IMG/VR virus record: IMGVR_UViG_3300042673_000738
Span: 1 to 20,691 of that record
DNA length: 20,691 nucleotides
Source of the DNA: a virus
Direction: 5' to 3' (one strand)
Shown here: positions 1,598 to 17,977 of the stretch, piece by piece
How positions within the stretch are numbered: the first letter of the stretch is position 1
Layout of the letters: the number at the start of each line of letters is the position of its first letter
Notes under the pieces: model-generated
Database searches by the model: none
What the model was told of the DNA's origin: nothing
Seen by the model: the letters and a program-made list of their open reading frames with translations, nothing else
Position numbers and translations under genes: made by a program

Positions 1598-1873
1598 TTA
1601 AAATCGAGAGCAAGTTATGTATGATCCGGACTGATGGCAAGTAGTTGTTTTAGGTCCATAAGATTCATATTGATATGATACTTGTGGTGCAGAAGCACGG
1701 TTGATCATATACTGTTCAAATGCCGTTCGTTTGGTTTGATTATTGATACAGCCTAGATACATATCAGATCCAGGTTTGAATCCGGCTTTTTGACAGTCCG
1801 TTGAGGCTTGCTGGAAACTACTAGCGCATCCGCTTAATAACAAAATCACTGCCGCTAAGATGATCTTTTTCAT
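1598..1873 (-). CDS. Small lipoprotein (91 aa)
   Basis: The frame opens further upstream, but the N-terminus MKKIILAAVILLLSGCASS at ATG 1873 is a textbook type II signal peptide with lipobox LLSGC, and GGAGATAAT directly precedes it as a ribosome binding site. The mature protein would be anchored through the lipobox cysteine (residue 16) in the cell envelope. It has further cysteines at CQKAGF, MYLGCINN, TTTCHQ and near the C-terminus (ITCSRF), suggesting disulfides in the periplasm. It starts 1 base after the stop of the 93-aa gene (1875). Phage lipoproteins can act in superinfection exclusion or as Rz1-type spanins, but it lacks the proline richness of Rz1. Function unknown. Confidence 0.75.
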   Translation of the reverse strand: MKKIILAAVILLLSGCASSFQQASTDCQKAGFKPGSDMYLGCINNQTKRTAFEQYMINRASAPQVSYQYESYGPKTTTCHQSGSYITCSRF

Positions 1874-1874
1874 A

Positions 1875-2156
1875 TTATCTCCGATCTGGAAAGTATTCAA
1901 ACAGTACAAACTTGGCACGGTTCAACAGTTGACGCTGGTCTTCCAACAGGTTAGCAAGAGTGTCGCCGTCATACGGGCCATAGCTGACCATCTCTTGTGC
2001 ATCGCTCAACATACTGGCCGCAACCATTGCGGGACCAGAGAACTTAAAAGTAGAGCTGGACTCCACTGCTTCACGCATGCCCGCTTCGGTCACTCCAAAC
2101 ATACGCACTTGGTTTTTTTCTTGCTCAGTTAGAGCTTGGTAAGTTGCTGTAGTCAT
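1875..2156 (-). CDS. Small hypothetical protein (93 aa)
   Basis: The start was set at ATG 2156 (MTTATYQALTEQEKNQVRMF), preceded by CAGGAGCAGAAA as ribosome binding site; the longer reading frame would run back through the promoter. It is a soluble, mostly helical, acidic protein without recognisable motif, ending in FEYFPDRR. It is first in a short operon with the lipoprotein, the zinc ribbon and the membrane peptide, driven by the promoter at 2187-2215. Confidence 0.7.
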   Translation of the reverse strand: MTTATYQALTEQEKNQVRMFGVTEAGMREAVESSSTFKFSGPAMVAASMLSDAQEMVSYGPYDGDTLANLLEDQRQLLNRAKFVLFEYFPDRR

Positions 2157-2186
2157 TTTCTGCTCCTGTTTGTTCACTGTATATAC

Positions 2187-2215
2187 ATTATAGTGGATCT
2201 GGGATTTCTGGTCTA
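2187..2215 (-). promoter_or_regulatory. Sigma70-like promoter, cassette copy 1
   Basis: Minus strand TAGACC (2210-2215), 17-base spacer, TATAAT (2187-2192). The spacer starts AGAAAT as in copy 2. Downstream comes the palindrome TGTATATACA and a leader ACAGTGAACAAACAGGAG that nearly equals the leaders of copies 2 and 3. Confidence 0.75.
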
Positions 2216-2246
2216 CCGTTTTCTGAGTGTTGCCTAAATACAACAG

Positions 2247-2468
2247 TTAAATCAAGTGCCTATGTAGCAATCCTACCACATAAATCACCAATAATCCGGC
2301 GTTGATCACTACCAAACTCAACTCACGGATACGGATGGCCCAAATCAGGTACAAGGTACTTCCTACATTTAACAGGTAAATGTTGAGTGGATCCATTTGT
2401 AGGCTTGTGGTCAGGGCACCGGCTAAGGTAAGAAAGCAGGCGGTCCACTTTAAGATATTATTCAGCAT
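2247..2468 (-). CDS. Small integral membrane protein (73 aa, about three TM helices)
   Basis: A 73-residue very hydrophobic protein starting MLNNILKWTACFLTLAGAL at ATG 2468. Three hydrophobic stretches can be seen (about residues 7-21, 28-45 and 51-68), separated by MDPLN and RIREL loops. The size and three-helix layout are compatible with a half-transporter such as SemiSWEET, but no PQ motif is seen, so this is only a comparison. It follows the 77-aa gene by 8 bases and shares its promoter. Confidence 0.7.
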   Translation of the reverse strand: MLNNILKWTACFLTLAGALTTSLQMDPLNIYLLNVGSTLYLIWAIRIRELSLVVINAGLLVIYVVGLLHRHLI

Positions 2469-2476
2469 CGGGTTCC

Positions 2477-2710
2477 TTAGCTGTTGACAGTATTGAACGG
2501 GCTGTGATCTTCAAAGATCCACCCTTGCTCTTGCAAGTAGGCGCGATTGGCTGGATTTTTGGTAAACGCATCCAGGGCTTCTAAACGGCGCACAATAGCG
2601 CAACGGCCTGTGCCGTGTTGGCGATCACGATAACCTGTGACTGACTTTGAATAATCGCTGAGAATGTCTGCTAGGTCTGCATCGCTGTAACGGCTGTTGA
2701 ACCAATCCAT
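2477..2710 (-). CDS. Small hypothetical protein (77 aa)
   Basis: Starts at ATG 2710 with AGGAGTAACAA as a strong ribosome binding site. It is a soluble protein of mixed charge starting MDWFNSRYSDADLADILSDY, with central RDRQHGTGRCAIVRRLEAL and a C-terminal FEDHSPFNTVNS. No family is recognised. It is the first gene behind promoter cassette copy 2 (2741-2769) and precedes the 73-aa membrane protein. Confidence 0.7.
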   Translation of the reverse strand: MDWFNSRYSDADLADILSDYSKSVTGYRDRQHGTGRCAIVRRLEALDAFTKNPANRAYLQEQGWIFEDHSPFNTVNS

Positions 2711-2740
2711 TTGTTACTCCTGTTTGTTTACTGTAAAAAC

Positions 2741-2769
2741 AGTATAGCATTTTGGGTATTTCTGGTCAA
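2741..2769 (-). promoter_or_regulatory. Sigma70-like promoter, cassette copy 2
   Basis: TTGACC (2764-2769), 17-base spacer, TATACT (2741-2746) on the minus strand, followed by the inverted repeat TACTGT-TTTT-ACAGTA overlapping the -10 box and initiation region, and by the shared leader ACAGTAAACAAACAGGAG directly before the 77-aa gene. Confidence 0.8.
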
Positions 2770-2784
2770 CCAAAAAGTGTTGTA

Positions 2785-3150
2785 TTAAAACAATATGTCC
2801 CACAAGAAAAGAGGTACAGCAAGGAAACACGCAATGAAAAATAGAATCAAAGTCCAAAGAAACTTGACAAAGGTCACTATTCCCCAATGTGGGAAAAACA
2901 AGAATCCTATTACAACCACTGCAACCAAGATTAACAATGCTATGTAGATTGGCCATGGCGGAGGAGCAGTGTCGCTGTAACCACCACCAAAACCACCACC
3001 GGCTCCCGCCTGTTGGGACAACAGTTTGTTTTGTTGGTCTAGTTTTTCATTGGTCTGGCAACCCGCGCAAGTCAATGACCAACCGTATGGTTTTACTGTA
3101 CCGCACCGAATACAGTTTGAATTATTTTTTAGGTAATTACCGTCGCTCAT
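2785..3150 (-). CDS. Zinc-ribbon membrane protein (121 aa)
   Basis: Start set at ATG 3150 (MSDGNYLKNNSNCIRCG), preceded by AGGACTGGCAAAC; the open frame further upstream runs through the promoter. The N-terminal 35 residues hold two CxxC pairs (CIRC and CAGC, 10 residues apart), a likely zinc ribbon. Then follow a Gln/Gly-rich linker (QQAGAGGGFGGGYSD), a PPPWP hinge, and two hydrophobic helices covering most of the C-terminal half. This layout resembles the zinc-ribbon plus transmembrane proteins common in bacteria. Function unknown. It is a single gene behind promoter cassette copy 3. Confidence 0.7.
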   Translation of the reverse strand: MSDGNYLKNNSNCIRCGTVKPYGWSLTCAGCQTNEKLDQQNKLLSQQAGAGGGFGGGYSDTAPPPWPIYIALLILVAVVVIGFLFFPHWGIVTFVKFLWTLILFFIACFLAVPLFLWDILF

Positions 3151-3182
3151 GTTTGCCAGTCCTGTTTGTTTACTGTAAAAAC

Positions 3183-3211
3183 AGTATAGCATTAGGGCGA
3201 TTTTGGGTCAA
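3183..3211 (-). promoter_or_regulatory. Sigma70-like promoter, cassette copy 3
   Basis: TTGACC (3206-3211), 17-base spacer, TATACT (3183-3188) on the minus strand, then the same TACTGT-TTTT-ACAGTA inverted repeat and ACAGTAAACAAACAGGA leader as copy 2. The downstream gene is the zinc-ribbon membrane protein. The promoter lies 38 bases past the stop of the large structural gene. Confidence 0.8.
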
Positions 3212-3249
3212 CCAAAATCTCAGCAAAAAGTGTTGTTTTTCAGCAACAA

Positions 3250-5139
3250 TTACGCAGAAGTTGCAGGTATTTGGGTGTCAGAACCTATTCCAGCTGTGTC
3301 AAATACCTTGATATTTCTGCCTTCTCTAAAGCTGGCAATAATGGCTTGCCCGTACTGATTTGAAGTGTCAGTGATTGCTGTAAAGAAATCGTTTTGACCT
3401 TTTGGGGCCACATCTGTGCCAATGTCGTGCAGACTACTGCTGAGACTCATGACGCTGCTTCTGGAGTTGGCAGCAAGATCTGTAAATGTCACTTGTGCAA
3501 GAACCAAGTTATTTGTTTCTGCGCTCAACTGCTGAGCCATTGTGGTAAAGCTGGTATTGAGACTACTGGTGTTGCTGGCGTTGTTTGCGGCCACGTTGGC
3601 AATAAGGTTGGCAGCGGCTGGTATTAGACCGGTACTGAAAGCAGCATCCAAGTTGCCATATGTTCCTGCTCCCGGCAAGCCTGGTGGGATAGTGATGGTG
3701 ATTTCGATGGGGCTGGGATTTACTACCGTGGTATAATCACCGTTTAGTGTGTCTTGCATTACGGTATAAACGCCGTTGGTGGCGTCAGTTAAGGTGTAGA
3801 GAGCATTGGCTGACTGCATGTAGTTTATGGTGCTGGTCACGGAAGTGAATTCAGCAGTATAAGGTACGCCAGCAGTGGCACCCATGAAGTCAAACAAGGT
3901 TAGTGTACCGTTTGGACCTGTTCCTGTGGCCAAGGTACTGTTGATGTTGGAAGCAACACTGGCAGGAACAGGTTTTGTTAGGGCAGTAATATCTCCCAAG
4001 CCCGAGTTGGTTTCAGTTGTTGCTACTGTTCTGGCCAACACTGGCAAGGTCAGTTGAAAAATGTTTTTGACCTGTTGCAAACTGTCAGCAATGGCCTGCG
4101 CAGCTAAGGCCTGGTCTGGTGGTATAATCTTAGATAAACCAACGTAGGCTGGGCTGGTACCATACACTAACAGCAGATTGCTGTTGACAGTGGCAGCAGA
4201 AACATACACATTGCTGAGCACCGTGGCAGTGGGGCTGACATCAGTACCAGTGGGTGTTAAATTGGTCAGACCCAAGTAACTGTTGGGCAGGCTCTTTACT
4301 GGATTCAACAGGTCAGCCATTGTGGACAAGTTTTCAGTGGTCACACTCAACAGCAGCTTGACCTGATCTAGTAGGTCGCCTGTGACTTGAGTCATGACTT
4401 GATAAATCAACAGATCCACTGATCCAGCCACTTCAGATCCGCGTTGTATAGAACTGAGGTCATCTATAGTAACTCCAGCATTGATTAACTGTTGTGTCAA
4501 TTCTGGCATGATACCGCCAGCTTGTGACATTTGATACAGTAACACCCAGGGATATCCAAACAGCGGTAATTTGTTCAAGGCCCAAGCAGTTCCTAGTTTG
4601 GCCAAGTCTGCGCCAAATGTCGGCAAGTTTCTATTGATGTCGCTAATGCCACCTGTAGTTATGCTGTTCATACTGGTAAAGGTTGTGTCCAACACCGCAG
4701 AATTTTTTACACTGTTGATGATGGGATTGTTTTGTACAATATAGCCTTGACACTGACCATATACCTGTGCAAACTTGCCCAGGTCGCCGTTGCCCAAGAT
4801 TAAGTTTGCCTGTGTGGTCACCAGACCCGAAAACCCTGTGGCACTGTTGCCAATAGGCAAGGTGTTGGCATACGCAGCAGGCACTGCATCAGTAATGGCT
4901 GGCAGTGTGTTGGCCGCCAGGCTCTGTAAAGAACTAAAAGTGCTGGTGGTGATTTGATCATTGGCTGTGCCCACATTGGCAGCAGCCGATGACAGTATAC
5001 CAAGATAGTCACTGACCGCAGTGGTACTGGCATAAGCATTAATGGCCACTGTCAAGTTGCCACTGATCACGAGACCTTGGTTTTGCAGTAGGCCATCAGT
5101 GGCAATCAACATTACTGAACTATAAGGACCTTGACTCAT
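3250..5139 (-). CDS. Large hydrophobic virion structural protein (629 aa), PAAR neighbour
   Basis: A 629-residue protein rich in Ala, Thr, Ser, Asn and Leu with few charges, without a signal peptide. It begins MSQGPYSSVMLIATDG and ends with GSDTQIPATSA. It shows long alternating hydrophobic/small-residue segments and one more hydrophobic stretch (KLPLFGYPWVLLYQMSQAGG, roughly residues 190-210). The start lies 3 bases after the PAAR stop, so the two are co-expressed from the late promoter at 5456-5462. In T4-like marine phages a large structural protein often accompanies the PAAR tip, which supports a baseplate, tail-tip or spike role, perhaps membrane-interacting during infection. No specific T4 gp number can be assigned. 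Confidence 0.75.
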   Translation of the reverse strand: MSQGPYSSVMLIATDGLLQNQGLVISGNLTVAINAYASTTAVSDYLGILSSAAANVGTANDQITTSTFSSLQSLAANTLPAITDAVPAAYANTLPIGNSATGFSGLVTTQANLILGNGDLGKFAQVYGQCQGYIVQNNPIINSVKNSAVLDTTFTSMNSITTGGISDINRNLPTFGADLAKLGTAWALNKLPLFGYPWVLLYQMSQAGGIMPELTQQLINAGVTIDDLSSIQRGSEVAGSVDLLIYQVMTQVTGDLLDQVKLLLSVTTENLSTMADLLNPVKSLPNSYLGLTNLTPTGTDVSPTATVLSNVYVSAATVNSNLLLVYGTSPAYVGLSKIIPPDQALAAQAIADSLQQVKNIFQLTLPVLARTVATTETNSGLGDITALTKPVPASVASNINSTLATGTGPNGTLTLFDFMGATAGVPYTAEFTSVTSTINYMQSANALYTLTDATNGVYTVMQDTLNGDYTTVVNPSPIEITITIPPGLPGAGTYGNLDAAFSTGLIPAAANLIANVAANNASNTSSLNTSFTTMAQQLSAETNNLVLAQVTFTDLAANSRSSVMSLSSSLHDIGTDVAPKGQNDFFTAITDTSNQYGQAIIASFREGRNIKVFDTAGIGSDTQIPATSA

Positions 5140-5142
5140 TGT

Positions 5143-5433
5143 TTATCCGATAAAGACACTTTCGCTGCCTTGAATTATTTGTGTGCATTCACTCATACGA
5201 TCGCCTACAGTGGCAATGGGCTTTCCATTCACAAAAACAGAACTGCTACGAGCTATGATTTTGCTCACATGCGGTACGCACTTGTTGCCCTGTGGTTTTT
5301 GATGCACTGTGCTGGAATCGCCGTCGCGAGCCACAGGCCGCCCATCAACAAACACATCTGGGGATCCTGCAGCAATTGTGTATCCACTGCAATGTACAGC
5401 CCCGGCATCACCTTGTCTTGCTACTGCTGGCAT
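5143..5433 (-). CDS. PAAR-domain tail spike tip protein (96 aa)
   Basis: A compact 96-residue protein with PAAR-type features: it starts MPAVARQGDAG, contains GSPDVFVDGRPVARDGDS and the related second copy SSSVFVNGKPIATVGDR, and ends in a beta repeat SESVFIG. His and Cys residues (VHCSG, STVHQ, CVPHVS, SECTQ) could bind the metal that stabilises the cone. PAAR proteins cap the gp5/VgrG needle and sharpen the tip that pierces the outer membrane; T4 gp5.4 is the phage example. The length is normal. Expression is predicted from a late promoter located inside a 12-bp inverted repeat whose 3' arm ends 1 base before the ATG, so translation from read-through mRNA may be blocked. Confidence 0.9.
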   Translation of the reverse strand: MPAVARQGDAGAVHCSGYTIAAGSPDVFVDGRPVARDGDSSTVHQKPQGNKCVPHVSKIIARSSSVFVNGKPIATVGDRMSECTQIIQGSESVFIG

Positions 5434-5481: not shown

Positions 5482-6129
5482 TTATGTATTGGCCAGTTGT
5501 GCAAGATACTGGTCAGTAGCCGGAGTTCGAACACCAGTTACTTGCAGCGTTACTCTTGGGTGATGGCTGGCATTGGCTGTGGCATGTGGTAGATTTTGCC
5601 AATCAAATGTGGTCACTTCGCCGGCACGCCAACGACTATGGCAGTAGTTGCCATAACTCCAAAACTGTCCAGATTCCCAATCAGTCAGCTGTATTTGTAC
5701 ACGAAGCACACTGTCGGGATCGTCGGGATTCCACTTTTCCAACTTGTCCAGGTGCAGGTTCCAAACTTGACCAGGCATTTGTACGTGAATACGAGCCATG
5801 GAATCTTCCAAGGCAAAGCGGTCAGCAATATCTTGTAACACAGGAGGAATTGCCCAGTTGAGATTGCTAATCACATAGTCTTTACCGTAGCCTTCACGTT
5901 CCAGGTCGTAGTCTTCAGCGGCTAGTTCTTCTTCAGGACGGCTTTTGCCCGCAGCACCCCGTGTGCGCCAAGTAGCAGACCGCGAGTTGGCCACAATGTC
6001 TGCCAACTCTGAATCCCAGCAGGGTTCAATAAATCCCAAGCGCACAACACGATCTTGATCGGGATCAAATTGTTGATTATCAAAATGATATTGACTGCGT
6101 TTTTTTGTTTCGTCCCAGGAGCTTTTCAT
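5482..6129 (-). CDS. 2-oxoglutarate/Fe(II)-dependent oxygenase-like protein (215 aa)
   Basis: The double-stranded beta-helix signature is readable: HxD at His126-Asp128 (WNLHLDK), a distal His at 182 (LPHATAN) and an Arg at 192 (HPRVTLQV) placed to bind 2-oxoglutarate. Between them lies RVQIQLTDWESGQFW, typical of aspartyl-hydroxylase/prolyl-hydroxylase-like folds. The likely reaction is hydroxylation of an amino-acid side chain or small molecule with Fe(II), O2 and 2-oxoglutarate; the substrate is unknown. Its ATG overlaps the TGA of the sulfotransferase-like gene (ATGA), so the two are coupled. Such oxygenases are common in T4-like marine phages. Here it is the last gene of the tctA operon. 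Confidence 0.8.
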   Translation of the reverse strand: MKSSWDETKKRSQYHFDNQQFDPDQDRVVRLGFIEPCWDSELADIVANSRSATWRTRGAAGKSRPEEELAAEDYDLEREGYGKDYVISNLNWAIPPVLQDIADRFALEDSMARIHVQMPGQVWNLHLDKLEKWNPDDPDSVLRVQIQLTDWESGQFWSYGNYCHSRWRAGEVTTFDWQNLPHATANASHHPRVTLQVTGVRTPATDQYLAQLANT

Positions 6130-6740
6130 ACGACTGTTACCTCTATGTCTGATTTTTTATAACTTTGATAATACTCCATTGGCGGTGGTTCGATACCCAA
6201 GGTTCTTGCCAAGGTCAGGTTGTCACCAATGTAATAGCTGTCTTTCCATGCTGCCAAGATGTCACGATTTTGATCTGCAATGATGCCGGCCATGTTTCTT
6301 AAGTTTACGTAATACTTATCATATTTGGGGTATGTGATGTCAAAGTGTCCGCACTTGACCCACCAGCCCAGGCAAGCATCGTCGTTTCTGTGTACCAGAA
6401 TAACAGGACACTCGGGCCAATGCTGCTTTAAGAAATCAATATGATGCGCAAACACATGACTCTTAACAATGCGTACACCTTCACCTGAAAATGGACGATC
6501 AAATTCTGCTTCACATTCAGCTTTGGTATATTCGTTTAGTCGATCAAAGAATCCGCCAAATTCCATGCCGGGATCAAAGTATGCGCCCATATGCATCAAA
6601 TGTGGTTCTCCCCAAGCACTGTGCCAGTATTCGCGTTCAGGACTTGCGTCACTACGATCGATACTGGGACTAAAGTAAATGTTCTTGCTGACACTGGACC
6701 ACTTGGATCCCGGTGCACCTGCCATAAAAATATATTTCAT
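6126..6740 (-). CDS. Sulfotransferase-like P-loop protein (204 aa)
   Basis: The N-terminus MKYIFMAGAPGSKWSSVSK has a beta strand plus a P-loop-like GAPGSKWSS resembling the 5'-phosphosulfate binding loop of sulfotransferases. A later segment, RIVKSHVFAHHIDFLK followed by PVILVHRNDDACLGWW, resembles the 3'-phosphate/PAPS-binding part of the same fold (strand, then R and a downstream helix). The protein is shorter than typical sulfotransferases (about 250-300 aa), so a phage-specific P-loop kinase or transferase is also possible. The start overlaps the tctC stop as ATGA and its stop overlaps the oxygenase start as ATGA: three genes coupled in series. The acceptor is unknown. Confidence 0.65.
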   Translation of the reverse strand: MKYIFMAGAPGSKWSSVSKNIYFSPSIDRSDASPEREYWHSAWGEPHLMHMGAYFDPGMEFGGFFDRLNEYTKAECEAEFDRPFSGEGVRIVKSHVFAHHIDFLKQHWPECPVILVHRNDDACLGWWVKCGHFDITYPKYDKYYVNLRNMAGIIADQNRDILAAWKDSYYIGDNLTLARTLGIEPPPMEYYQSYKKSDIEVTVV

Positions 6741-7798
6741 TTGATCACCAATTCAGGTTTGTAAACGCTTTTGAATTGATAAGCATTGTCGTGCCACCAA
6801 ACCAAAGTCTGCAATTTTTTCTCAGTGATATTTTTACGCAAGCGATCTACAACTTGATTACCGTCTGCGCCGACAATCCATGTGTAACGACCCGAGTCTG
6901 CTTCTAATGCTTTGACTGCGTCGGGATCGGCTAACATACTGCGAAGTGCTGCTCGCAATTTTTCTGCATTGGGATTACCTTTGTTTACCCACAAAGCCTT
7001 TTGTAACACATCTCTAAAGTTTCTTTGCAGTGTATACGCTTCATACAATTCGCCACGAGGCTCTTGTCCGTATATGCGTTTGAAGACATCTTCAAATCGA
7101 AAACCTGGAGGAAAGTTAGGATCTTCTTGCTGCTGACCTGTTGCTAAATCTAACACACCGTGGTGATACCAAATCTTGCTGTCGGGTTTGTTGACATAGT
7201 GTTTGATCCAAGCAGCCGGTGTTTCTCTCACTGTGTTGAGTTCTCCTCGCTGATATGCCAATCTGCGTTCTGAACCTTTGATTCCGTTGACCCAGGTCAC
7301 ATGTTTTTTCCAACATGCCAGGTAATTTTCTTTCTTGGGCAAGTTGCCGCAGACCAGCATGGCAATGGCCATGCCGTCGGGTTCAAGTCCCGAGCCACCA
7401 GCAATACGTATACGATCACGTTCAGGATTAGTTGTAGCTGCATGTCCTAATACAATGTTGAGATTCTGCATGCCAATGGAATCGTAGTGCTTGTAGTCAT
7501 AGTCAATTTGGTCTACCAGATAACTGACGCCGTTGCCGCCGTGGCTGACCATGATCACTTTGGGATCTGTTCTTAGCTTGTTGTGAAACTCGTTAAAGCC
7601 AGGAATGTCTTTGGCCCCAGGAATGTGCTGGATTACAATTTTTTCTCCCAGATGCTTTTCTAAATGTCGGGCAACAATGTTGGCCCAAACACTGGTGCCA
7701 CCTCCGGGTGCCTGTGGTACAATCATGCGATACTCAGCATGTGCTGTGCTGACTACAACAGCCAATCCAGCAATGATCAATTTTACTATGTTGCGCAT
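6737..7798 (-). CDS. tctC: TctC/Bug-family periplasmic solute-binding protein
   Basis: A 353-residue protein with a Sec signal peptide: MRNIVKLIIAGLAVVVSTAHA with likely cleavage after residue 21. The first mature strand RMIVPQAPGGGTSVWANIVA corresponds to the VPFxPGGxxD-type opening of Bug/TctC proteins, followed by VARHLEKHLGEKIVIQHIPGA as in the family. A small-residue loop, AGGSGLEPDGMAIAM (133-147), takes the position of the usual G-S-x-G ligand loop. Two cysteines (150 and 162) in the exported domain may form a disulfide. TctC binds a carboxylate in the periplasm and hands it to TctA/TctB. The sequence is quite divergent and the ligand cannot be predicted. It follows tctA by 11 bases with a strong AGGAG site and overlaps the next gene by ATGA. 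Confidence 0.85.
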   Translation of the reverse strand: MRNIVKLIIAGLAVVVSTAHAEYRMIVPQAPGGGTSVWANIVARHLEKHLGEKIVIQHIPGAKDIPGFNEFHNKLRTDPKVIMVSHGGNGVSYLVDQIDYDYKHYDSIGMQNLNIVLGHAATTNPERDRIRIAGGSGLEPDGMAIAMLVCGNLPKKENYLACWKKHVTWVNGIKGSERRLAYQRGELNTVRETPAAWIKHYVNKPDSKIWYHHGVLDLATGQQQEDPNFPPGFRFEDVFKRIYGQEPRGELYEAYTLQRNFRDVLQKALWVNKGNPNAEKLRAALRSMLADPDAVKALEADSGRYTWIVGADGNQVVDRLRKNITEKKLQTLVWWHDNAYQFKSVYKPELVIK

Positions 7799-7809
7799 AT
7801 TAATCTCCT

Positions 7810-9249
7810 TTAATGATATGCTAACCCGCGATTGGGTCTAAAAATACTGTAAGTTACAATGACTAGAGAAATAACGGTTAGAGACACAAATATGGGTCGT
7901 GTTGCCAATTCGTTTATGGTGTACAAGGCTTGAGTTTGCTGAATGTAATTTTCCAGTTTCTCTACCAGGATAAATGCCACCATCACTGCTGGGCGTGAGA
8001 TACCAAATTTTTTGCAAGCCACGCCCAACACACTGCACAATGCCAAAATATAAAGATCGTTCACAGTTCCAGTGTATTCCAAGCAACTCCATACAATAAT
8101 GGACAAGATCACAACAGCGTAAATCCAGTAGGGTATTTCCAGCAGCTTGACCACAATGCGTGTGGTAAACATTGCAATAAAAAATGCTAATACCGTGCTG
8201 GCAATAAATGCTCCGCCCAGGCTCCAGAAAAATGCAGTGTCTTTGAGTGTTTCAGGTGTGCCCAATTCCATTCCAAAGTAAACACATATGGCCATCATAA
8301 TGGCTGCAAATGGTGCACCAGGGATGCCAAACAACACAGTAGGAACCATGCTGGAAGCTTTTTGTGCATTGTTGGCACCTTCGCAGCCCAGCAAGCCTTT
8401 GATGTTGCCGTTGCCAAATGTTTCTCGGGGATTCTTAGCCACTGTGGCACCATAGGCCATGATGTCGCCTACCGATCCACCAATTCCTGGCAGCAGGCCT
8501 GAAACAAATCCAATGAATCCACCACGCAAAACTTCACGCCAATGCATCACACAATCTCTGAACCCACAAAACAGTTGCGGCCAATAATCTGTAATGGGTT
8601 CTGGGCGTACTGCAGATTTTCTAAATCCCGACATGACTTCTGGTATACCAAACAAGCCAGCAATCAAAGGAATCAATTGTATGCCGGCTCCGAGATATTC
8701 CCAACCACCGGTATAACGCACAACTCCCGTGGCAGGGTTTTGCCCAATCATACCTAGAAAACAGCCCAGGCCGATGGCCACCAAACTCAGCAGCACATTT
8801 TTGCTGGTAATGAATCCCACACAGGCCAGTGCCATCAACATGAACGCCATAAACTCCGGAATACCAAATACCAATACCAATTTGGAATACCATGGCATCA
8901 GTGCAAATGCTATTGTGCCCCACAGCACTCCGTTTACAGTGGAATCCATAATGGCAATGCCAATGGCACGAGCAGCCTGTCCTTGCTGCGACATCTTGTA
9001 TCCATCAATAATGCTGGCAGCGGTGGAATTACTACCGGGTATTCCGGTCAAGATACTGGTGAAACTGTCGCCAGTTGACGATGCTGCTATTAGACTGGTT
9101 AAAAACACAATGCCCAAGTAAGGATCTGCAAGAAAGTAACTGCTGAGTCCAAACACAGTTAATAAACCTGTGGTGGCCCCAGCCATTGGCATGATGCCAA
9201 TAATCATTCCATAAACAGTACCAAGCAGGCACCAAATCACATAATCCAT
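7810..9249 (-). CDS. tctA: TctA-family tripartite tricarboxylate transporter large membrane subunit
   Basis: A 479-residue polytopic membrane protein, close to the usual TctA length of about 500. Both diagnostic halves are present: the first with GIMPMAGATTGLL (18-30) and LTGIPGSNSTAASIIDGY (68-84), the second with GLLPGIGGSVGDIMAYG (251-267), GANNAQKASSMVPTVLFGIP (291-310) and GAPFAAIMMA. About a dozen hydrophobic segments are visible. TctA forms the permease with the small subunit TctB and uses the ion gradient plus TctC to import carboxylates. No TctB-like gene (about 150 aa, four helices) is found in the window. It has no frameshift and is the first gene of the operon. The ribosome binding site before ATG 9249 is weak (CGGTAACTCG). 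Confidence 0.9.
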   Translation of the reverse strand: MDYVIWCLLGTVYGMIIGIMPMAGATTGLLTVFGLSSYFLADPYLGIVFLTSLIAASSTGDSFTSILTGIPGSNSTAASIIDGYKMSQQGQAARAIGIAIMDSTVNGVLWGTIAFALMPWYSKLVLVFGIPEFMAFMLMALACVGFITSKNVLLSLVAIGLGCFLGMIGQNPATGVVRYTGGWEYLGAGIQLIPLIAGLFGIPEVMSGFRKSAVRPEPITDYWPQLFCGFRDCVMHWREVLRGGFIGFVSGLLPGIGGSVGDIMAYGATVAKNPRETFGNGNIKGLLGCEGANNAQKASSMVPTVLFGIPGAPFAAIMMAICVYFGMELGTPETLKDTAFFWSLGGAFIASTVLAFFIAMFTTRIVVKLLEIPYWIYAVVILSIIVWSCLEYTGTVNDLYILALCSVLGVACKKFGISRPAVMVAFILVEKLENYIQQTQALYTINELATRPIFVSLTVISLVIVTYSIFRPNRGLAYH

Positions 9250-9364
9250 CGAGTTACCGTGTTGAGAGAGAAATATATTGCAGAAGATTTTGCAAGATAA
9301 TTAATACTATATATCAAAAATTTATTTGTTTAACAAATTTATTTATCAAAATAGGAAATTTTTA
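9250..9364. promoter_or_regulatory. Divergent intergenic control region (tctA / methyltransferase)
   Basis: This AT-rich 115-base gap separates the divergent tctA and methyltransferase genes. On the minus strand it holds a late-type ATAAATA (9340-9346) about 90 bases before tctA and a weaker sigma70-like pair TTGTTA-17-TATATA. A 7-bp inverted repeat ATTTGTT-T-AACAAAT (9324-9338) and the direct repeat AAATTTATTT flank it. On the plus strand AGGAAATTTTTA before ATG 9365 is the methyltransferase ribosome binding site; no convincing plus-strand promoter is seen. Confidence 0.5.
9340..9346 (-). promoter_or_regulatory. Candidate T4-like late promoter element for the tctA operon
   Basis: GATAAATA on the minus strand, seven of eight matches to the T4 late consensus. 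A transcript would start near 9333 and carry a leader of about 85 bases before tctA. The AT-rich context makes chance more likely than for the other late elements. Confidence 0.4.
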
Positions 9365-10099
9365 ATGAATAGCAAAATTTTTAATTGTATCTTAGAAAAA
9401 TTACAAGATACCTGGCATTTACCAAAATACGCAGAAATTCGTGCCGATTTCAACAAAGACACTGTGTTAGATCAATTGCCTTGGACTCCGGCACGCAAAC
9501 TAAAGTTTCAGCAAGATTTAAGTTCTACATTCAATGTACCTGTTGAAATAGAAGGCACTATTGCTAATCTAGTTAACAGAACCGATGTACGTTACTTGTC
9601 GTGGTTCTTTGGTGAGATATGGAAGCCCCGTACAGAAAAATATCATTGGACTGGATATCGTGTTGCAGAAGAAATTTGTCGTATGAATCCACGAAAAGTA
9701 TTGGATGTGGGTTGCGGATACAATCCCTTTAAAGGACGTATTCCTAATCTCATAGGTATTGATCCTTACAACAACTGTGCTGACTTCATGGTCGACATCT
9801 TGGATTATCATGTAGAGCCTGCTAGCTTTGATCATGTGATTGCCCTGGGTTCAATCAACTTCAACAGCAGGGAAGATATTGAACTACGGTTCTCTGCCAC
9901 TATCAACTTGCTGGCACCAGGCGGTCATTTGTGGATGCGTTGCAACCCAGGACACAGTCATAAAAATGGACCATGGGTTGAAATTTTCCCATGGTCCTTC
10001 GATGTTGCTTACGAGTTAGCCAAGCAGTTCGACTTAACTCTAGAAACTCTTAAACAGGATCAAGACAGATTGTTTTTCCTGTTCAAGCGTAACGCTTAA
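9365..10099 (+). CDS. Class I SAM-dependent methyltransferase (244 aa)
   Basis: The start was chosen at ATG 9365 (MNSKIFNCILEKLQ) with AGGAAATTTTTA before it; the open frame reaches back to a TTG at 9326. A helical N-terminal part of about 75 residues precedes the Rossmann core: motif I VLDVGCGYN (112-120), an acidic second strand GIDPYNNCADF with D133, and FDHVIALGSINF (155-166) as motif IV region, followed by LLAPGGHLWMR. It transfers methyl groups from SAM; the target is not evident and no DNA-MTase DPPY-type catalytic motif is seen, so a small molecule, protein or glycan is more likely. It is one of two plus-strand genes and overlaps the convergent Sm-like gene by 4 bases. Confidence 0.8.
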   Translation: MNSKIFNCILEKLQDTWHLPKYAEIRADFNKDTVLDQLPWTPARKLKFQQDLSSTFNVPVEIEGTIANLVNRTDVRYLSWFFGEIWKPRTEKYHWTGYRVAEEICRMNPRKVLDVGCGYNPFKGRIPNLIGIDPYNNCADFMVDILDYHVEPASFDHVIALGSINFNSREDIELRFSATINLLAPGGHLWMRCNPGHSHKNGPWVEIFPWSFDVAYELAKQFDLTLETLKQDQDRLFFLFKRNA

Positions 10100-10398
10100 C
10101 CTACTAAGATCTTCTTCTCCGGCGGTACTACTACGCCGGTTGTTACTTCAATATATTTGGTTTTGATATCATCCTTGGCGTCAGCAATCATGGAAACGGC
10201 TGCGCCATACAGAACAATTTCCTTGTCCAAGTTGCCGCTGAACATGCTGGGCATCATTTGCAGGCCTTGCTGAGTTGGTGCCATGCTGATGGGCTGTTTC
10301 AAAATAAACATACCATCAGTTACTTCCACAATCTTGGCAATCAGCTCTTCGCCGCTGTTTAATTTAAAAACCAATATTTCGTCTTTTTCAATCTTCAT
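10096..10398 (-). CDS. Sm-like (LSm fold) phage protein (100 aa)
   Basis: A 100-residue protein whose first half (EILVFKLNSGEELIAKIVEV, then MFILKQPISM) has the pattern of an Sm1 motif: strand, SGEE turn, strand, then a proline-ended strand. A second block (KEIVLYGAAVSMIADA) could be the closing strands, and the tail is hydrophilic (KTKYIEVTTG). Similar short proteins occur in many T4-like marine phages. An RNA-binding or Hfq-like role is inference from the fold only. The AAAGGATAACA ribosome site lies in the end of the glutaredoxin gene, 2 bases after which this gene begins. Confidence 0.6.
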   Translation of the reverse strand: MKIEKDEILVFKLNSGEELIAKIVEVTDGMFILKQPISMAPTQQGLQMMPSMFSGNLDKEIVLYGAAVSMIADAKDDIKTKYIEVTTGVVVPPEKKILVG

Positions 10399-10400
10399 TG

Positions 10401-10643
10401 TTATCCTTTAAGTTGTGTCCAAAATTCTTCGGGTTGTCCAGCAAGTCCTTGATAGCCACCTTGTAACAATGTTGTACCGTTGAATACTTGTGGAACACTA
10501 CGCAACCCTTGATCAACTAAAAAATCTCTAGCGTCAGGTTGATCCTCAAGATTAATGGTACGATATTCTACACCGCGGCTTTCTAGCAAAGCTTTCGCAC
10601 GATCGCAAAATGGACAATTATTTTTTGTGTATACTGTTAACAT
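10401..10643 (-). CDS. grx: Glutaredoxin, ribonucleotide reductase reductant
   Basis: An 80-residue classical dithiol glutaredoxin: CPFC active site at residues 10-13 (NNCPFCDRAK), cis-proline in SVPQVF (Pro51), and GG at 62-63 in the glutathione-binding QGGYQGL. It reduces the C-terminal cysteines of the NrdA encoded nearby, and other disulfides, with glutathione as electron donor. T4 NrdC is the functional counterpart. It has its own promoter (TTGACA-17-TATAAT) and AGGAAATTGAT ribosome site, so it can be expressed early and apart from nrdA/nrdB upstream. Confidence 0.95.
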   Translation of the reverse strand: MLTVYTKNNCPFCDRAKALLESRGVEYRTINLEDQPDARDFLVDQGLRSVPQVFNGTTLLQGGYQGLAGQPEEFWTQLKG

Positions 10644-10661
10644 ATCAATTTCCTAGTCTAA

Positions 10662-10690
10662 ATTATAGCAGTTTTTGTTTAGTGTGTCAA
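10662..10690 (-). promoter_or_regulatory. Strong sigma70 promoter for glutaredoxin
   Basis: Perfect TTGACA (10685-10690) and TATAAT (10662-10667) with a 17-base spacer on the minus strand, 18 bases before the glutaredoxin ATG. It partly overlaps the gap after the 109-aa gene. This is the closest match to the bacterial consensus in the window. Confidence 0.85.
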
Positions 10691-10692
10691 CA

Positions 10693-11022
10693 TCAAATGG
10701 ATTTGTTTATCAATTCAAACGTGATGCCGTTTTCCGTTTGGTATCGGGTAAAAAATGCCAGCCATTCAGGATCAGTTCCTTTTCCTTGTGCAGCAGTGGT
10801 TTCGTCTTTCCAAACATATACTCTGTCATTGACAGCACCAGATCCTTCGACCACTACAAGATCGCCGCGAGCAACGGCCTGATCTCTCAAATCAAACTGT
10901 CGTAGTTCGGCAGCACGAAACTGAGCTTGCTCGGCCATGGGTAGAGTTTCTATCCATTTGTGTAGTGGCACAGCTGGCTGTCCATCTTGGGTCTTGTAAA
11001 CAAATTCTTGTGCGACTGGCAT
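10693..11022 (-). CDS. Hypothetical protein downstream of nrdB (109 aa)
   Basis: A soluble 109-residue protein with MPVAQEFVYKTQDGQPAVPLHKWIETL, an acidic/basic central helix (EQAQFRAAELRQFDLRDQA), then VEGSGAVNDRVYVWKDE and an aromatic WLAFFTRYQTENG. No family is recognised. It starts 2 bases after the nrdB stop, a spacing that indicates co-translation. It is not the YfaE-type ferredoxin often found after nrdB, because the CxxxxCxxC cluster is absent. A role in RNR function or dNTP supply is only suggested by position. Confidence 0.7.
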   Translation of the reverse strand: MPVAQEFVYKTQDGQPAVPLHKWIETLPMAEQAQFRAAELRQFDLRDQAVARGDLVVVEGSGAVNDRVYVWKDETTAAQGKGTDPEWLAFFTRYQTENGITFELINKSI

Positions 11023-11024
11023 GA

Positions 11025-12128
11025 TTATAAGCTGGGCAGCTGATCGTAATCAAGGTCATCGCTCATGACACCAATTACATAATTTGTTGATTCTGTTTCT
11101 TGTAATGCTGACTGCTTCTTGTGTATATCTGTGTGCTTGTTAAACCAAGGAATTGGAGTGGTACGTGGGGCTGTGCCTTGATACTTGATGCCAATTTGTT
11201 TTAACGCATCTACTGCTGTGTAGTCTACAAAGTCCATCAAGATATTGGCGTTGAGTCCAATTACAGGACCTTTCTTAAACAGGTACACAGCCCAATCTTT
11301 TTCTTCGCGGATAACATCTTTGTAGATTTCATACACTTCTGCTTCGCACTCGGCCTTGATTTCAGCAAAGCGTGGATCTTCTTTGACCACCTGATTGATC
11401 AAGAAAGCTGTCCAGCCTTTGTGCAACAGTTCATCTTGCAGGATCAGGCTAATGATGTTGCCGTTGCCGATAAAGATACGATTCTCAACCATTGCTAAAC
11501 TTGTAGCAAACGAAACCATAAAGCGGAATGCTTCTAATGCATAGCTGGCGTGTAGTGCTAGCCAAATTGCCTTAATGTGTTCTTTCTCTGTGACATTATC
11601 AGGGTTGAGTTCTTTGCGGCAGTTTAATCTGTGTAAGTAGTCATAATACTTGCCCACGCTGCTTGCCATGCCCACAATTTCTTCTGTGTCGTGAATTGTG
11701 TTAAACACATCTTTGGGCACGTTGTAGATGTTGCGAATGATATGACTGTAGCTGCGACTGTGAATATTTGTTTCAAAAAAGCTCCAGTTGTACATTAGGG
11801 CTTCCAGCTCAGGCAGGCTTACACAAGGTGTAAACACCTGTGCAGGGCCACGCCCTTGCAAACTGTCTAGGGCTGTTTGACGTAACAAGTTGCTGGTAAA
11901 GATATGCTTGACAGCATCGCTGGCATCCTTAAAGTCACCTGCATCTTTAGTCAGACTGATCTCTTCTGGTACCCAATAGAAACCACGTGCTGTAGTTTCA
12001 AAGTTGGCAACCTTGTTGTACTTGACTTCTTCAAAGCGTTGAATAGTGACCGGACCTGCTGGATCCAGAAACATCTTGCGATTTAGATAGTCTGTTTTTG
12101 TTTTTAAGTTGTATTGTGCGTTGCTCAT
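11025..12128 (-). CDS. nrdB: Class Ia ribonucleotide reductase beta subunit NrdB
   Basis: A 367-residue protein that generates the tyrosyl radical for NrdA. Di-iron ligands and the radical residue can be placed by the family pattern: Asp88 (LDSLQGRG), Glu119 (SFFETNIH), His123, Tyr127 in HSRSYSHI, Glu199 (YALEAFRF), Glu233 and His236 (QDELLHKG). All are retained, so it should be a normal tyrosyl-radical class Ia enzyme. The extreme C-terminus (DLDYDQLPSL) is the tail that docks on NrdA. Its ATG lies 3 bases after the stop of a small membrane protein gene inserted between nrdA and nrdB. Confidence 0.97.
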   Translation of the reverse strand: MSNAQYNLKTKTDYLNRKMFLDPAGPVTIQRFEEVKYNKVANFETTARGFYWVPEEISLTKDAGDFKDASDAVKHIFTSNLLRQTALDSLQGRGPAQVFTPCVSLPELEALMYNWSFFETNIHSRSYSHIIRNIYNVPKDVFNTIHDTEEIVGMASSVGKYYDYLHRLNCRKELNPDNVTEKEHIKAIWLALHASYALEAFRFMVSFATSLAMVENRIFIGNGNIISLILQDELLHKGWTAFLINQVVKEDPRFAEIKAECEAEVYEIYKDVIREEKDWAVYLFKKGPVIGLNANILMDFVDYTAVDALKQIGIKYQGTAPRTTPIPWFNKHTDIHKKQSALQETESTNYVIGVMSDDLDYDQLPSL

Positions 12129-12131
12129 AAT

Positions 12132-12323
12132 TTACCAATTTTTAAGTATGTTTGCAATAATAAAAATGCAAGTTACCACATGTATAATGACCCAAAAAGT
12201 TTTAAGAAACAGTGCTATACGAGCTTCTCTAAGTGTAAGAATAGGAACATCTGGTCGATCATCGTCGGTATTACCCATCAAATGCCCAGTTGCCCTGGCC
12301 CATATCTTTTCAAAACTATTCAT
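12132..12323 (-). CDS. Small membrane protein between nrdA and nrdB (63 aa)
   Basis: A 63-residue protein starting MNSFEKIWARATGHLMGNTD, with an acidic stretch (NTDDDRPDVP), then REARIALFLKTFWVIIH and a hydrophobic C-terminal helix VVTCIFIIANILKNW. One, perhaps two, membrane helices. It lies 2 bases after the nrdA stop and 3 before nrdB, so its reading frame is fully embedded in the operon and very likely translated. Function unknown; it could tether RNR to the membrane, but nothing in its sequence shows this. Confidence 0.75.
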   Translation of the reverse strand: MNSFEKIWARATGHLMGNTDDDRPDVPILTLREARIALFLKTFWVIIHVVTCIFIIANILKNW

Positions 12324-12325
12324 AG

Positions 12326-14644
12326 CTAGAGTTTGCAGGCCTCACAGTCTTCTGCATCATCAAAATCAACAGCTTCTAGCATCACTGGTGCATCTTCTGC
12401 TGCGGCTTTGCTGCCTTGTTTGTTGATCAAGCTGTAGTAGAATGTTTTTAAACCCCAATGGTGTGCCTGCATCAAGTTTTTAGCAATCAATGTAGTTGGC
12501 ACTTTACGATCTGCCCAGTGTGCCGGATTGTAGAATGTGTTGGTTGAAATTGACTGGTCGACATAAGCTGCCAACACTGCCGCAGTCTTTAAATAGCCAA
12601 CACAGTCTGTTTGTTCCCACATCAGTTGATAACGATTCTTCAACTTTTGGTATTCTGGAACAACCTGTACCAATGATCCGGCTTTTGATTCTTTGACAGT
12701 GATCAAGCTCATTGGCTGTTCAATACCGTTGGTACTGTTGATAACAACACTGCTGGATTCCACAGGAGCAATGGCCATTTGCGTGGCATTACGTACACCT
12801 GATTTAATCATGCGTTCACGCAATGGTTCCCAAGGAAGTTCTGCTGTGAAGTCTGCAAGTTCGTTGACACCGGCAGCACGTAATTCCCAAGGAAACTTAC
12901 CTTGTCCGTAACGTGTCTGGCTACTGTGATCGCAAGCACCGCGTTCTTCCGCAAGCTCTACGCTGGCTTCTGTCAAATAGAACGCTTGATGTTCCATCCA
13001 GGATTTAACATCTGCTAAAGCATCGGCATCGCCGTACTTGAGTCCACGTTTGGCATGCCAGTAAGCCAGGTTGGTAATACCAATACCCAAGGGGCGAATC
13101 TCGTCATTGCTTAGTTTACTTTGTATTGATAAGAAGTCTTGATAGTCCAAGATGTTGTTTAAGCTGCGATGAAGTATACGACAAGCACGACGCATGTCTT
13201 CCGGGTTACGGAATGCACCCCAGTTGATAGAACCCAGGGTACATAAGGCAATGCGACCTTGGTCGTCATCGAGCCGTTGGAACGGCACTGTAGGCAATAA
13301 GATTTCACAGCACAAGTTGCTTTGATAGATGGTATGATACTCAGGGTCAAACGGACCTTGATTCATTACGTTGTCAATAAACACAAGATAGATACGACCA
13401 GTGTCGGTGCGTTCTTTGAGCAAGCCCGACTTGAATACTTCTTCAGCACTCATTGTTTTCTTACGTAGGTCTTTGCGCTTTTCGTATCGGACATACAGCT
13501 CTTCGAACAATTTTGTATCGCTATAGAAAGCTTGATGCAGATCAGGTACTTCGTTGGGATCAAAGAAGGTAATGTTTTCTTTGTTCTTAAAGCGACGCCA
13601 AAATAACGCACTTAGAACAACACCGTAGTCCATGAAGCGCACACGAGTTTCTTCTGTGCCTTGGTTGTTCTTCAGCACAATCAAGTCATCAAACTGATAG
13701 TGCCATATGGGATAAAATACTGTAGCTGATGCATTACGAATGCCACCTTGGCTGCAACTACGTAGGTCACCAAACCACTTTTTCAAGAATGGGATCATGC
13801 CTGTGTGCATGATCTCGCCACCGCGTATGGGTGCGCCTAGCGGGCGTAAGCGACCAATCTCCAAGCCAATGCCGGCACGTTTGGCCGCATACTTGGCCAT
13901 CATCTCGCCACTAGCAAAGATACTGTCAAGATTATCATCGCTACGAATAAGAACACAGCTACTAAACTGCTTAGTGGGTGTGCCAAGACCTGCAAGTACA
14001 GGAGTAGCAAGAGTGAATAAGCCATCCGACGCTGCATTATAATATTCTTTGATATAACGCATACGGACTGTGTTGGGTTCTTCTCGATGAAATACTGTTG
14101 CTGCCGCAACCATGTATCGCACTTGTGGAGTTTCGTATGTTTCTTTTGTGGTACGATTGCGCACCAGATACTTTTCGATCAGCTGTTCGATTGCAGCATA
14201 TCCGTACTGTTCATCTTTCTCGTGATCGATGATGTCGTCCATGCGATTCCAATCATCTTCTGTGTACCAAGTCAGTAGTTCACTGGTATACACACCTGCT
14301 GCCACGTTCTTGCAAACGATTTCGTACAGGCGAGGAGGCTCGTAACTACCATATACGTCCTTGCGGAGCATACTCAAGCGTTGCTTGCCGGCTACATATT
14401 GATAATTTACATGTCCCACATCAGGATTGGATTCTACATCAATCAAATCCACTATAGCACGTAGAGTTATTTCGTCGATTTCTTTTGTGGTAATGCCATC
14501 GTAAAAATGCGGCTGGCTTTTGATTTCTATCATCGATTGACTTACATCTGCTATGCCACTGCAAACTTTGGTAATTTGCGCTTGCCATTTATCGATGTTT
14601 AAAGGCTCACGATTACCGTTTCTTTTTTGAACTTGAATTGTCAT
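12326..14644 (-). CDS. nrdA: Class Ia ribonucleotide reductase alpha subunit NrdA
   Basis: A full-length 772-residue catalytic subunit that reduces NDPs to dNDPs. The N-terminus (VQKRNGNREPLNIDKW) is an ATP-cone, so dATP inhibition may be retained. The catalytic set is present: Cys230 (FSSCVLI), Asn443/Cys445/Glu447 (SNLCCEILLPT), Cys468 (ALCTLGSIN), the radical-transfer pair Tyr736-Tyr737 (KTFYYSL), and a C-terminal redox pair Cys767/Cys770 (DCEACKL) that the nearby glutaredoxin would reduce. No intein or intron interrupts it. It begins 7 bases after the stop of the 141-aa gene, within a run that starts with the tail-fibre gene, an unusual mixing of structural and nucleotide-metabolism genes. 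Confidence 0.98.
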   Translation of the reverse strand: MTIQVQKRNGNREPLNIDKWQAQITKVCSGIADVSQSMIEIKSQPHFYDGITTKEIDEITLRAIVDLIDVESNPDVGHVNYQYVAGKQRLSMLRKDVYGSYEPPRLYEIVCKNVAAGVYTSELLTWYTEDDWNRMDDIIDHEKDEQYGYAAIEQLIEKYLVRNRTTKETYETPQVRYMVAAATVFHREEPNTVRMRYIKEYYNAASDGLFTLATPVLAGLGTPTKQFSSCVLIRSDDNLDSIFASGEMMAKYAAKRAGIGLEIGRLRPLGAPIRGGEIMHTGMIPFLKKWFGDLRSCSQGGIRNASATVFYPIWHYQFDDLIVLKNNQGTEETRVRFMDYGVVLSALFWRRFKNKENITFFDPNEVPDLHQAFYSDTKLFEELYVRYEKRKDLRKKTMSAEEVFKSGLLKERTDTGRIYLVFIDNVMNQGPFDPEYHTIYQSNLCCEILLPTVPFQRLDDDQGRIALCTLGSINWGAFRNPEDMRRACRILHRSLNNILDYQDFLSIQSKLSNDEIRPLGIGITNLAYWHAKRGLKYGDADALADVKSWMEHQAFYLTEASVELAEERGACDHSSQTRYGQGKFPWELRAAGVNELADFTAELPWEPLRERMIKSGVRNATQMAIAPVESSSVVINSTNGIEQPMSLITVKESKAGSLVQVVPEYQKLKNRYQLMWEQTDCVGYLKTAAVLAAYVDQSISTNTFYNPAHWADRKVPTTLIAKNLMQAHHWGLKTFYYSLINKQGSKAAAEDAPVMLEAVDFDDAEDCEACKL

Positions 14645-16684: not shown

Positions 16685-17391
16685 GCTGTTAGATAGTACA
16701 GCTCAACTCGCTTGGTCCACTCATCAGTCCAGTAGTCAAATTCGTCACCTTCAATGACAAATTCCAAGTACTGTGGTTTAGTGTAGGTTTGATCTTCCAA
16801 GAGTTTGGGCTGCACAGCCATTAAAATAACACCGGTGTTGATGTCTGTTCCGTGCATTTCATTGTGGGCTTGTGCGTATGCTGCCAACTGCAAGAAGTAG
16901 TCAGTGATGTACTCACGCTTCTTGACCTTGTTGCTTTGTTTGAAGTCCATGATAGCAGGTCGGTCTTTCCATTTACCTACCAAGTCTGTAGTACCAGCAT
17001 ATAACCCACTATAATACACAGGAACTTCTGTACCCCAGAATTCTGTGGCATTTACCAAACCTTGCAAGATAATTTCGGCTGCCATGAACCAACTTGGGTG
17101 TGCAAATGGGTTGCTGGGCAAAGGCTTCATTTCGTCCATCATCACATAAGTTTCCAAGTAGGCATGCATGCGTGTGCCTCTGTTGGCTGCTTCTGTGGTG
17201 ATTTGCTGGGCACGTTGTTCACCTACATTCTTGCGCCAGTTGGCCAAGGCGTCGCGATCTTTCTGCGGCTTGGTGCGGTCCAGGACGGTTGTTACACTGG
17301 GTACTTTCTTGCCATCAGGCAAGCAATAGTGTCTCTTGCCATCCACAGTGGTTCTGTCAATGGGCACATAATTATATCGTTGTGTTATCAT
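16681..17391 (-). CDS. PD-(D/E)XK exonuclease, RecB/Cas4-like (236 aa)
   Basis: The start was set at ATG 17391 (MITQRYNYVPIDRTTVDGKR), whose A overlaps the iscA stop (TAATG). Nuclease motifs follow in the order of RecB-family nucleases: RGTRMHAYLE with His76 and Glu80, Glu122 (TEVPVY), Asp136 (GTTDLVG), the core Asp149-x-Lys151 (AIMDFKQSNK), and the downstream helix motif QLAAY (Gln168, Tyr172). These predict a metal-dependent DNA exonuclease for recombination or host-DNA degradation. Cas4-type cysteines are absent, so no Fe-S cluster is predicted, and the neighbouring Fe-S genes are not obviously its maturation system. Confidence 0.85.
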   Translation of the reverse strand: MITQRYNYVPIDRTTVDGKRHYCLPDGKKVPSVTTVLDRTKPQKDRDALANWRKNVGEQRAQQITTEAANRGTRMHAYLETYVMMDEMKPLPSNPFAHPSWFMAAEIILQGLVNATEFWGTEVPVYYSGLYAGTTDLVGKWKDRPAIMDFKQSNKVKKREYITDYFLQLAAYAQAHNEMHGTDINTGVILMAVQPKLLEDQTYTKPQYLEFVIEGDEFDYWTDEWTKRVELYYLTA

Positions 17392-17967: not shown

Positions 17968-17977
17968 TACATCTCCT

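Follow-up and report, generated by a model that had tools for sequence, protein, structure and literature searches.

Viral tctA and tctC genes in a conserved enzyme cassette with an exchangeable receptor slot

Genes of tripartite tricarboxylate transporters (TTTs) have been seen in viruses before. As far as the accessible parts of the two reports go, viral contigs from SUP05 single cells were described in 2014 as carrying tctA as an auxiliary metabolic gene, seen as a lone domain match and given no role, with a 2-oxoglutarate (2OG) oxygenase also reported (PMC4164917), and tricarboxylate-transport genes lie in an island of a T4-like norB/nirK virus (PMC8115048). Here, we analyze a tctA-tctC pair in a virus fragment of 20,691 nucleotides (IMG/VR record IMGVR_UViG_3300042673_000738; this whole stretch is called the window), where it is linked to genes resembling a sulfotransferase, a 2OG oxygenase, and a methyltransferase. 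A receptor, the enzyme linkage, a receptor swap, and the absence of TctB are not described in those same parts of the two reports (PMC4164917, PMC8115048). Phage tctA was known before; the receptor-enzyme cassette, the swap, and a phage TctA without TctB appear to be undescribed in the literature searched.

Among bacteria, the TctABC subtype of Pelagibacterales (Transporter Classification 2.A.80), with a TctA-TctB fusion and a TctC of ~355 amino acids (aa), has a TctA of the same family, and the viral TctA is its sister among the proteins sampled. In contrast to those fusions, the viral TctA ends at 479 aa, has no TctB domain, and is linked to three candidate modifying enzymes. Orphan Bug/TctC receptors of Betaproteobacteria and Rhodoplanes (PMC5812351, PMC5994714) are likewise encoded without membrane partners, and the alternative receptor found at this site in related phages is a canonical PF03401 protein. 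The phage versions differ from them in being virus-borne and welded to a sulfotransferase-like gene, and the receptor in the window is of another type and brings a TctA with it. Some related cassettes also share amidotransferase and adenylylsulfate-kinase-like genes with the O-methyl phosphoramidate capsule pathway of Campylobacter, Cj1415-Cj1418 (PMC11800397), but neither of these genes is in the window, no glutamine kinase was noticed, and the NCBIfam matches fall below curated cutoffs.

The features on which the analysis centers are as follows.

5482-6129, minus strand: 2OG-Fe(II) oxygenase-like protein, 215 aa, with an HxD...H...R motif; ATGA-coupled to the sulfotransferase-like gene
6126-6740, minus strand: sulfotransferase-like P-loop protein (GAPGSKWSSV), 204 aa, Sulfotransfer_3 in relatives; ATGA-coupled to tctC
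6737-7798, minus strand: tctC, divergent TTT periplasmic solute receptor, 353 aa, with signal peptide (AlphaFold/Foldseek fold, AxA motif)
7810-9249, minus strand: tctA, TTT large membrane subunit, 479 aa, without TctB domain (Pfam PF01970)
9326-10099, plus strand: divergent S-adenosylmethionine (SAM) methyltransferase-like protein, 257 aa, third enzyme of the cassette (Methyltransf_23 in relatives; DxGCGY)
6741-9365, no strand: swap slot, holding tctA-tctC here and a single canonical Bug/TctC receptor in the related loci L239, L159, and L158 (blastn, synteny)

Receptor exchange and linkage to three enzymes

A sequence-only reading of the window had described the four minus-strand genes as a transporter pair in an operon with two enzymes. 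All four are intact in the frames and at the coordinates that it gave, and the serial ATGA overlaps that it saw are present, between the tctC stop and the sulfotransferase-like start (6740-6737) and between the sulfotransferase-like stop and the 2OG start (6129-6126); the gap between tctA and tctC is 11 nucleotides, with AGGAG inside. The unit was drawn too small: the methyltransferase gene at 9326-10099(+) lies outside the range that was given but belongs to the same module.

The closest relatives of the window, L158, L159, and L239, are collinear with it in this neighborhood (nrdA 93%, nrdB 96%) and share the order spike, p141, nrdA, nrdB, glutaredoxin, methyltransferase, slot, sulfotransferase-like gene, 2OG gene, PAAR, and 629-aa protein. 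In blastn, homology between the window and L239 breaks off at window position 9365 and is regained at 6741; the ATGA-type start of the sulfotransferase-like gene is retained. The cassette proteins of L001 are 100% identical to those of the window, and L001 and L158 share the metagenome number 3300042291, so both versions of the slot probably coexist. This amounts to a natural experiment in which close relatives exchange a receptor-permease pair for a lone receptor at one site.

The same exchange was found on a wider scale. Reverse scans of viral contigs gave at least ~600 places each for the methyltransferase and the sulfotransferase-like protein as bait; most of the loci lacked tctA/tctC, and in those that were read, the slot between the two genes was usually filled by one canonical TctC/Bug receptor with a signal peptide (PF03401 at E = 4.7e-21 in L177 and 9e-24 in L183). 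When groups with both enzyme genes within 7 kb were counted, 57 of 103 had a Bug receptor, 37 had tctA (35 with the viral tctC), 1 had the viral tctC without tctA, 8 had neither, and none had tctA together with Bug, making the two mutually exclusive (Fisher p = 8e-20). In 52 of 63 Bug groups and 21 of 31 tctC groups, no more than 10 nucleotides separate the receptor stop from the start of the sulfotransferase-like gene. No other finding argues as strongly for a shared function of receptor and enzyme as this coupling, and it supports the earlier suggestion that TctC may bind a solute on which the enzymes act.

Possession of these transporter genes by a virus had been considered unusual, a view that did not hold: viral contigs contain at least 126 tctA and at least 240 tctC places. 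Near-identical contigs were merged into 73 groups, and within 6 kb of tctA/tctC, the methyltransferase was present in 54, the 2OG gene in 46, and the sulfotransferase-like gene in 43 of these; the next most common linked family reached 22. The density of three-enzyme homologues within 3 kb of tctA/tctC is ~9 times that at 3 to 10 kb (251 in 0.66 Mb versus 44 in 1.03 Mb), and tctA adjoins tctC (within 25 nucleotides) in 71 groups, in both orders. From the enzyme side, the best 80 of the methyltransferase loci had the sulfotransferase-like gene in 72 cases and the 2OG gene in 61, and the best 80 of the sulfotransferase-like loci had the methyltransferase in 59 and the 2OG gene in 76; the latter is missing near 20 of the 103 sulfotransferase-methyltransferase cassettes. 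Gene orders are shuffled between groups, and the cassette gives phage tctA a context, that of a conserved, shuffled enzyme set. The size of the reverse scans indicates that cassette chemistry is likely to be widespread in lakes and oceans. No module was found in a collection of 50,697 cultured-phage records, where the few tctA matches had 26 to 28% identity and came from faecal phage or Salmonella/E. coli records; a single-cell marine virus record contained distant sulfotransferase-like copies and one weak methyltransferase match.

Identity and ancestry of the proteins

The sequence-only reading had called both tctA and tctC intact and expected each product to match its Pfam profile. For TctA, this is the case, with PF01970 aligned at E = 4.1e-91 over residues 5 to 423, nearly the full model. 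P21, G24, P71, G72, P254, G255, E290, N293, and K297 are among the motif positions that are invariant in 45 viral relatives, and a sequence search of the PDB with the TctA profile gave nothing useful. The ratio of nonsynonymous to synonymous differences per site (pN/pS) for tctA is ~0.13 to 0.14 against two relatives at 85% identity, and tctA and tctC against their nearest relatives have a pN of ~0.09 to 0.17 and a pS of ~0.70 to 0.74 without internal stops, although synonymous divergence is near saturation and the ratios are indicative only. All five module genes have pN far below pS and zero stop codons, and tctA is under strong purifying selection.

For TctC, the expected profile match was not obtained, which comes close to what the sequence-only reading had named as a refutation. 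Pfam PF03401 did not match the window protein at E ≤ 1 and matched only 1 of 50 viral relatives (E = 0.008). We nevertheless accept it as a TTT receptor by its fold, together with a PDB profile match and an export motif. In the PDB, a profile of the 50 viral relatives matched BugD best (E = 0.003), the alignment covering the N-terminal ligand loop, and the AlphaFold model (predicted local distance difference test [pLDDT] score of 93) had TTT receptors as its 17 best Foldseek neighbors in the PDB (E = 1.7e-10 to 1.5e-7; template modeling score up to 0.67 by target), including BugD, Bug27, MatC with malate, TphC, AdpC, and Polaromonas TctC. The N terminus is hydrophobic and has a signal-peptidase AxA motif at residues 19 to 21 (A21 in 50 of 50 and A19 in 48 of 50 relatives), from which Sec export of the receptor is predicted. 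A GDSL lipase, suggested by a weak Pfam match (0.014) to the 353-aa protein, was overruled by the fold.

The enzymes were assigned from weaker matches. Sulfotransfer_3 matches 8 of 26 relatives of the 204-aa protein (best E = 2.6e-5), and its model is confident (pLDDT 94), but the Foldseek result is weak: there is no match at E ≤ 0.001, and sulfotransferases lead the list, with Cpz8 first (E = 0.014). The 2OG-like protein had no Pfam match in any of its relatives; the metal triad and the 2OG-binding arginine (H126, D128, H182, and R192) are present in 27 of 27, and a cyanophage protein annotated as a 2OG oxygenase matches distantly (E = 1e-6). Methyltransf_23 matches 23 of 33 relatives of the methyltransferase-like protein (best E = 3e-6), with a conserved DxGCGY motif, while the match of the window protein itself falls under the Pfam gathering cutoff. 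PDB sequence searches with the profiles of the three enzymes gave nothing useful. The N-terminal part of the methyltransferase-like protein is largely absent from short-form relatives.

The sequence-only reading had also noted that tctB is missing, and this is borne out: PF07331 had no match in the window record, and 50 related viral records (22 to 359 kb) gave none with the threshold relaxed to E ≤ 1, although all of these records may be fragments. A hidden TctB was rejected for the records examined on the same ground, and no small membrane gene recurring beside tctA was noticed in the top linked families. In a tree, the viral TctA proteins form one clade together with two metagenome-assembled genome (MAG) contigs bearing the module (support 100/100). 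Its sister among the bacteria sampled consists of Pelagibacterales proteins of 651 to 668 aa, which are TctA-TctB fusions, with PF01970 and, at residues ~505 to 640, a weak PF07331 match. The viral branch is long, at 1.79 changes per site, and with long branches and a bacterial sampling that is essentially Pelagibacterales, we name no donor. With the viral TctC profile, the ~355-aa receptors beside the fusions give E values of 1e-20 to 1e-24; the two that were checked were likewise missed by Pfam. From the position of TctA in the tree and these profile matches, tctA-tctC look like a pair derived from the Pelagibacterales fusion subtype minus its TctB part. One such fusion operon (L331, 4066-8237) adjoins a PrpF-family gene, a possible clue to the kind of substrate that this TTT subtype handles.

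Close bacterial relatives of TctC were absent from 369 and 385 genomes of two classes except for the two MAG contigs, and a scan of 84,980 genomes returned only the same two. One of them, L156, has all five module genes and looks phage derived. The context of the other, L155, would be bacterial as read from its open reading frames; this contig of the Marine bacterium B5-7 MAG has tctA, a viral-type tctC, the sulfotransferase-like gene, and the methyltransferase (1722-3718, 8527-12364) a few kilobases from YcaO and TfuA. YcaO/TfuA usually build thioamide or azoline peptides.

Function of the cassette

With modest confidence, we favor the reading that the cassette is an auxiliary nutrient-uptake module of T4-like aquatic phages, in which a receptor, with or without its own permease, imports a carboxylate-like anion, and the three enzymes modify this anion or its product. 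The host Sec system would export TctC to the periplasm, where it would capture a small anion, most likely an organic di- or tricarboxylate, and the phage TctA would move the anion inward across the inner membrane as an ion-driven symporter, either alone or with a host TctB. In the sister phages, the stand-alone Bug receptor would do the same job but would have to use host TctA/TctB; the Bug version would rely on a host possessing these proteins, and the tctA version would be of use in hosts that lack a suitable permease. Inside the cell, the sulfotransferase-like, 2OG-oxygenase-like, and methyltransferase-like enzymes may then modify the imported compound or its product. Orphan receptors served by a few shared membrane pairs have been proposed for many bacteria (PMC5994714; PMC5812351), and archaea have been proposed to use TctA by itself (PMC5898192; PMC5812351). 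The prediction is that these phages choose between a borrowed host permease and one that they supply and that TctA can function with no TctB encoded alongside it. Pairing of the phage TctA with a host TctB would be possible in principle, in a host that has one: in the order of a Pelagibacter MAG, TctB/TctA occur in 85 to 86 of 197 genomes (TctB in 85). More tentatively, the cassette may encode a virus-specific pathway, present in a large share of uncultured T4-like water phages, in which the periplasmic receptor would supply the sulfotransferase-like enzyme, the oxygenase, and the methyltransferase with one imported anion, to be turned into a modified small molecule during infection; the TctA permease, where present, would work without TctB.

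Several observations weigh against nutrient uptake coupled to modification. TctB is normally part of bacterial TTTs, and it was found nowhere here. Ion-driven carboxylate uptake by the viral TctA-TctC is putative. The ligand loop of TctC is GxGTSVW and not the usual GGxTD of Bug proteins. The enzyme labels are weak, given sub-threshold Pfam matches and a 2OG assignment by motif, and surface-modification clusters, too, often contain members of the sulfotransferase, methyltransferase, and oxygenase families. No receptor was detected in the 8 cassettes with neither type, and the 2OG gene or another enzyme is missing near some cassettes.

The locus could instead be a surface or virion modification island. 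Its enzymes would then modify glycans of the host or tail parts of the phage, perhaps as a barrier to superinfection, and its TTT genes would supply a building block or merely share a variable island. We regard this as unlikely, though it is the main rival. Some related cassettes add a glutamine amidotransferase (best NCBIfam match gamma-glutamyl-CDP-amidate hydrolase, E = 1e-16, under the cutoff) and an adenylylsulfate-kinase-like/nucleotidyltransferase fusion, recalling capsule phosphoramidate synthesis in Campylobacter (PMC11800397); a second P-loop protein (in 22 of 73 tctA/tctC groups) and SGNH-hydrolase-like and DUF2061 genes recur, and tail-spike-like and PAAR genes are nearby. However, the phosphoramidate-like genes are absent from the window, no glycosyltransferase was recognized among the recurrent linked families, and a random island would leave unexplained the exact receptor swap, the zero overlap of receptor types, and the coupling of receptor and sulfotransferase-like gene.

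Plain nutrient import, in which TctA-TctC bring in carbon or a 2OG-like cosubstrate for replication and the neighboring enzymes have nothing to do with the solute, seems improbable to us. TTT systems do import carboxylates, and the nearest bacterial operon sampled, that of Pelagibacterales, has the PrpF-family gene and genes read as organic-acid metabolism. Against this reading, the same three enzyme families accompany two very different receptor types, an association that plain carbon import should not require; a pure cosubstrate role also fits poorly with the missing 2OG gene near one-fifth of the cassettes (20 of 103) and with most cassettes having a receptor without a phage permease. It is very improbable that TctC/TctA serve not as a transporter but as a sensor or exclusion device, that is, as a periplasmic signaling receptor or a membrane block on DNA entry or uptake. 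Some Bug receptors are sensory (PMC5994714) and the lack of TctB would fit, but the invariance of the TctA motif residues in 45 viral sequences and the strong purifying selection argue against it, and no signaling gene was noticed among the linked families.

Neighboring genes and other cassettes

Phage genes flank the cassette on both sides. The phage-like genes of the window include nrdA, nrdB, glutaredoxin, a phrog exonuclease, tail-spike-like and PAAR genes, and IscA/NifU-type Fe-S proteins, and the T4 major capsid family Gp23 is present in 12 of 44 larger tctA-bearing relative records. A bacterial contig or prophage was ruled out by these flanks and by the larger relatives with the T4 capsid protein. 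One further feature separates the two arms of the module.

9250-9325, no strand: divergent intergenic region between tctA and the methyltransferase gene, identified by layout, in which promoters are presumed to lie

A short way into the methyltransferase gene as annotated, at 9340-9346(-), there is an ATAAATA core resembling a late promoter, but the number of such cores in the window is in line with chance (4 observed versus 3.1 expected). Directly downstream of the PAAR spike-tip gene, at 3250-5433, is the gene of a 629-aa protein that matches no family convincingly, an order kept in related phages.

Other cassettes carry additional genes. Related cassettes (L197, 1682-3848; L176, 6522-7070) have the amidotransferase, the adenylylsulfate-kinase-like/nucleotidyltransferase fusion, a cupin, and a further sulfotransferase-like P-loop protein, which may together form a donor pathway of the phosphoramidate or 3'-phosphoadenosine 5'-phosphosulfate type in phages. 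AMP (adenosine monophosphate)-ligase-like, amidinotransferase-like, or radical-SAM genes lie near some cassettes (L022, 13555-14286; L040, 7615-8670; L120, 6509-7522) and suggest further small-molecule chemistry; the amidinotransferase-like label is our own reading, without a Pfam match. In the window, IscA-type (PF01521) and NifU_N (PF01592) Fe-S assembly genes adjoin at 17391-17997, and relatives of one or the other recur near tctC in other loci.

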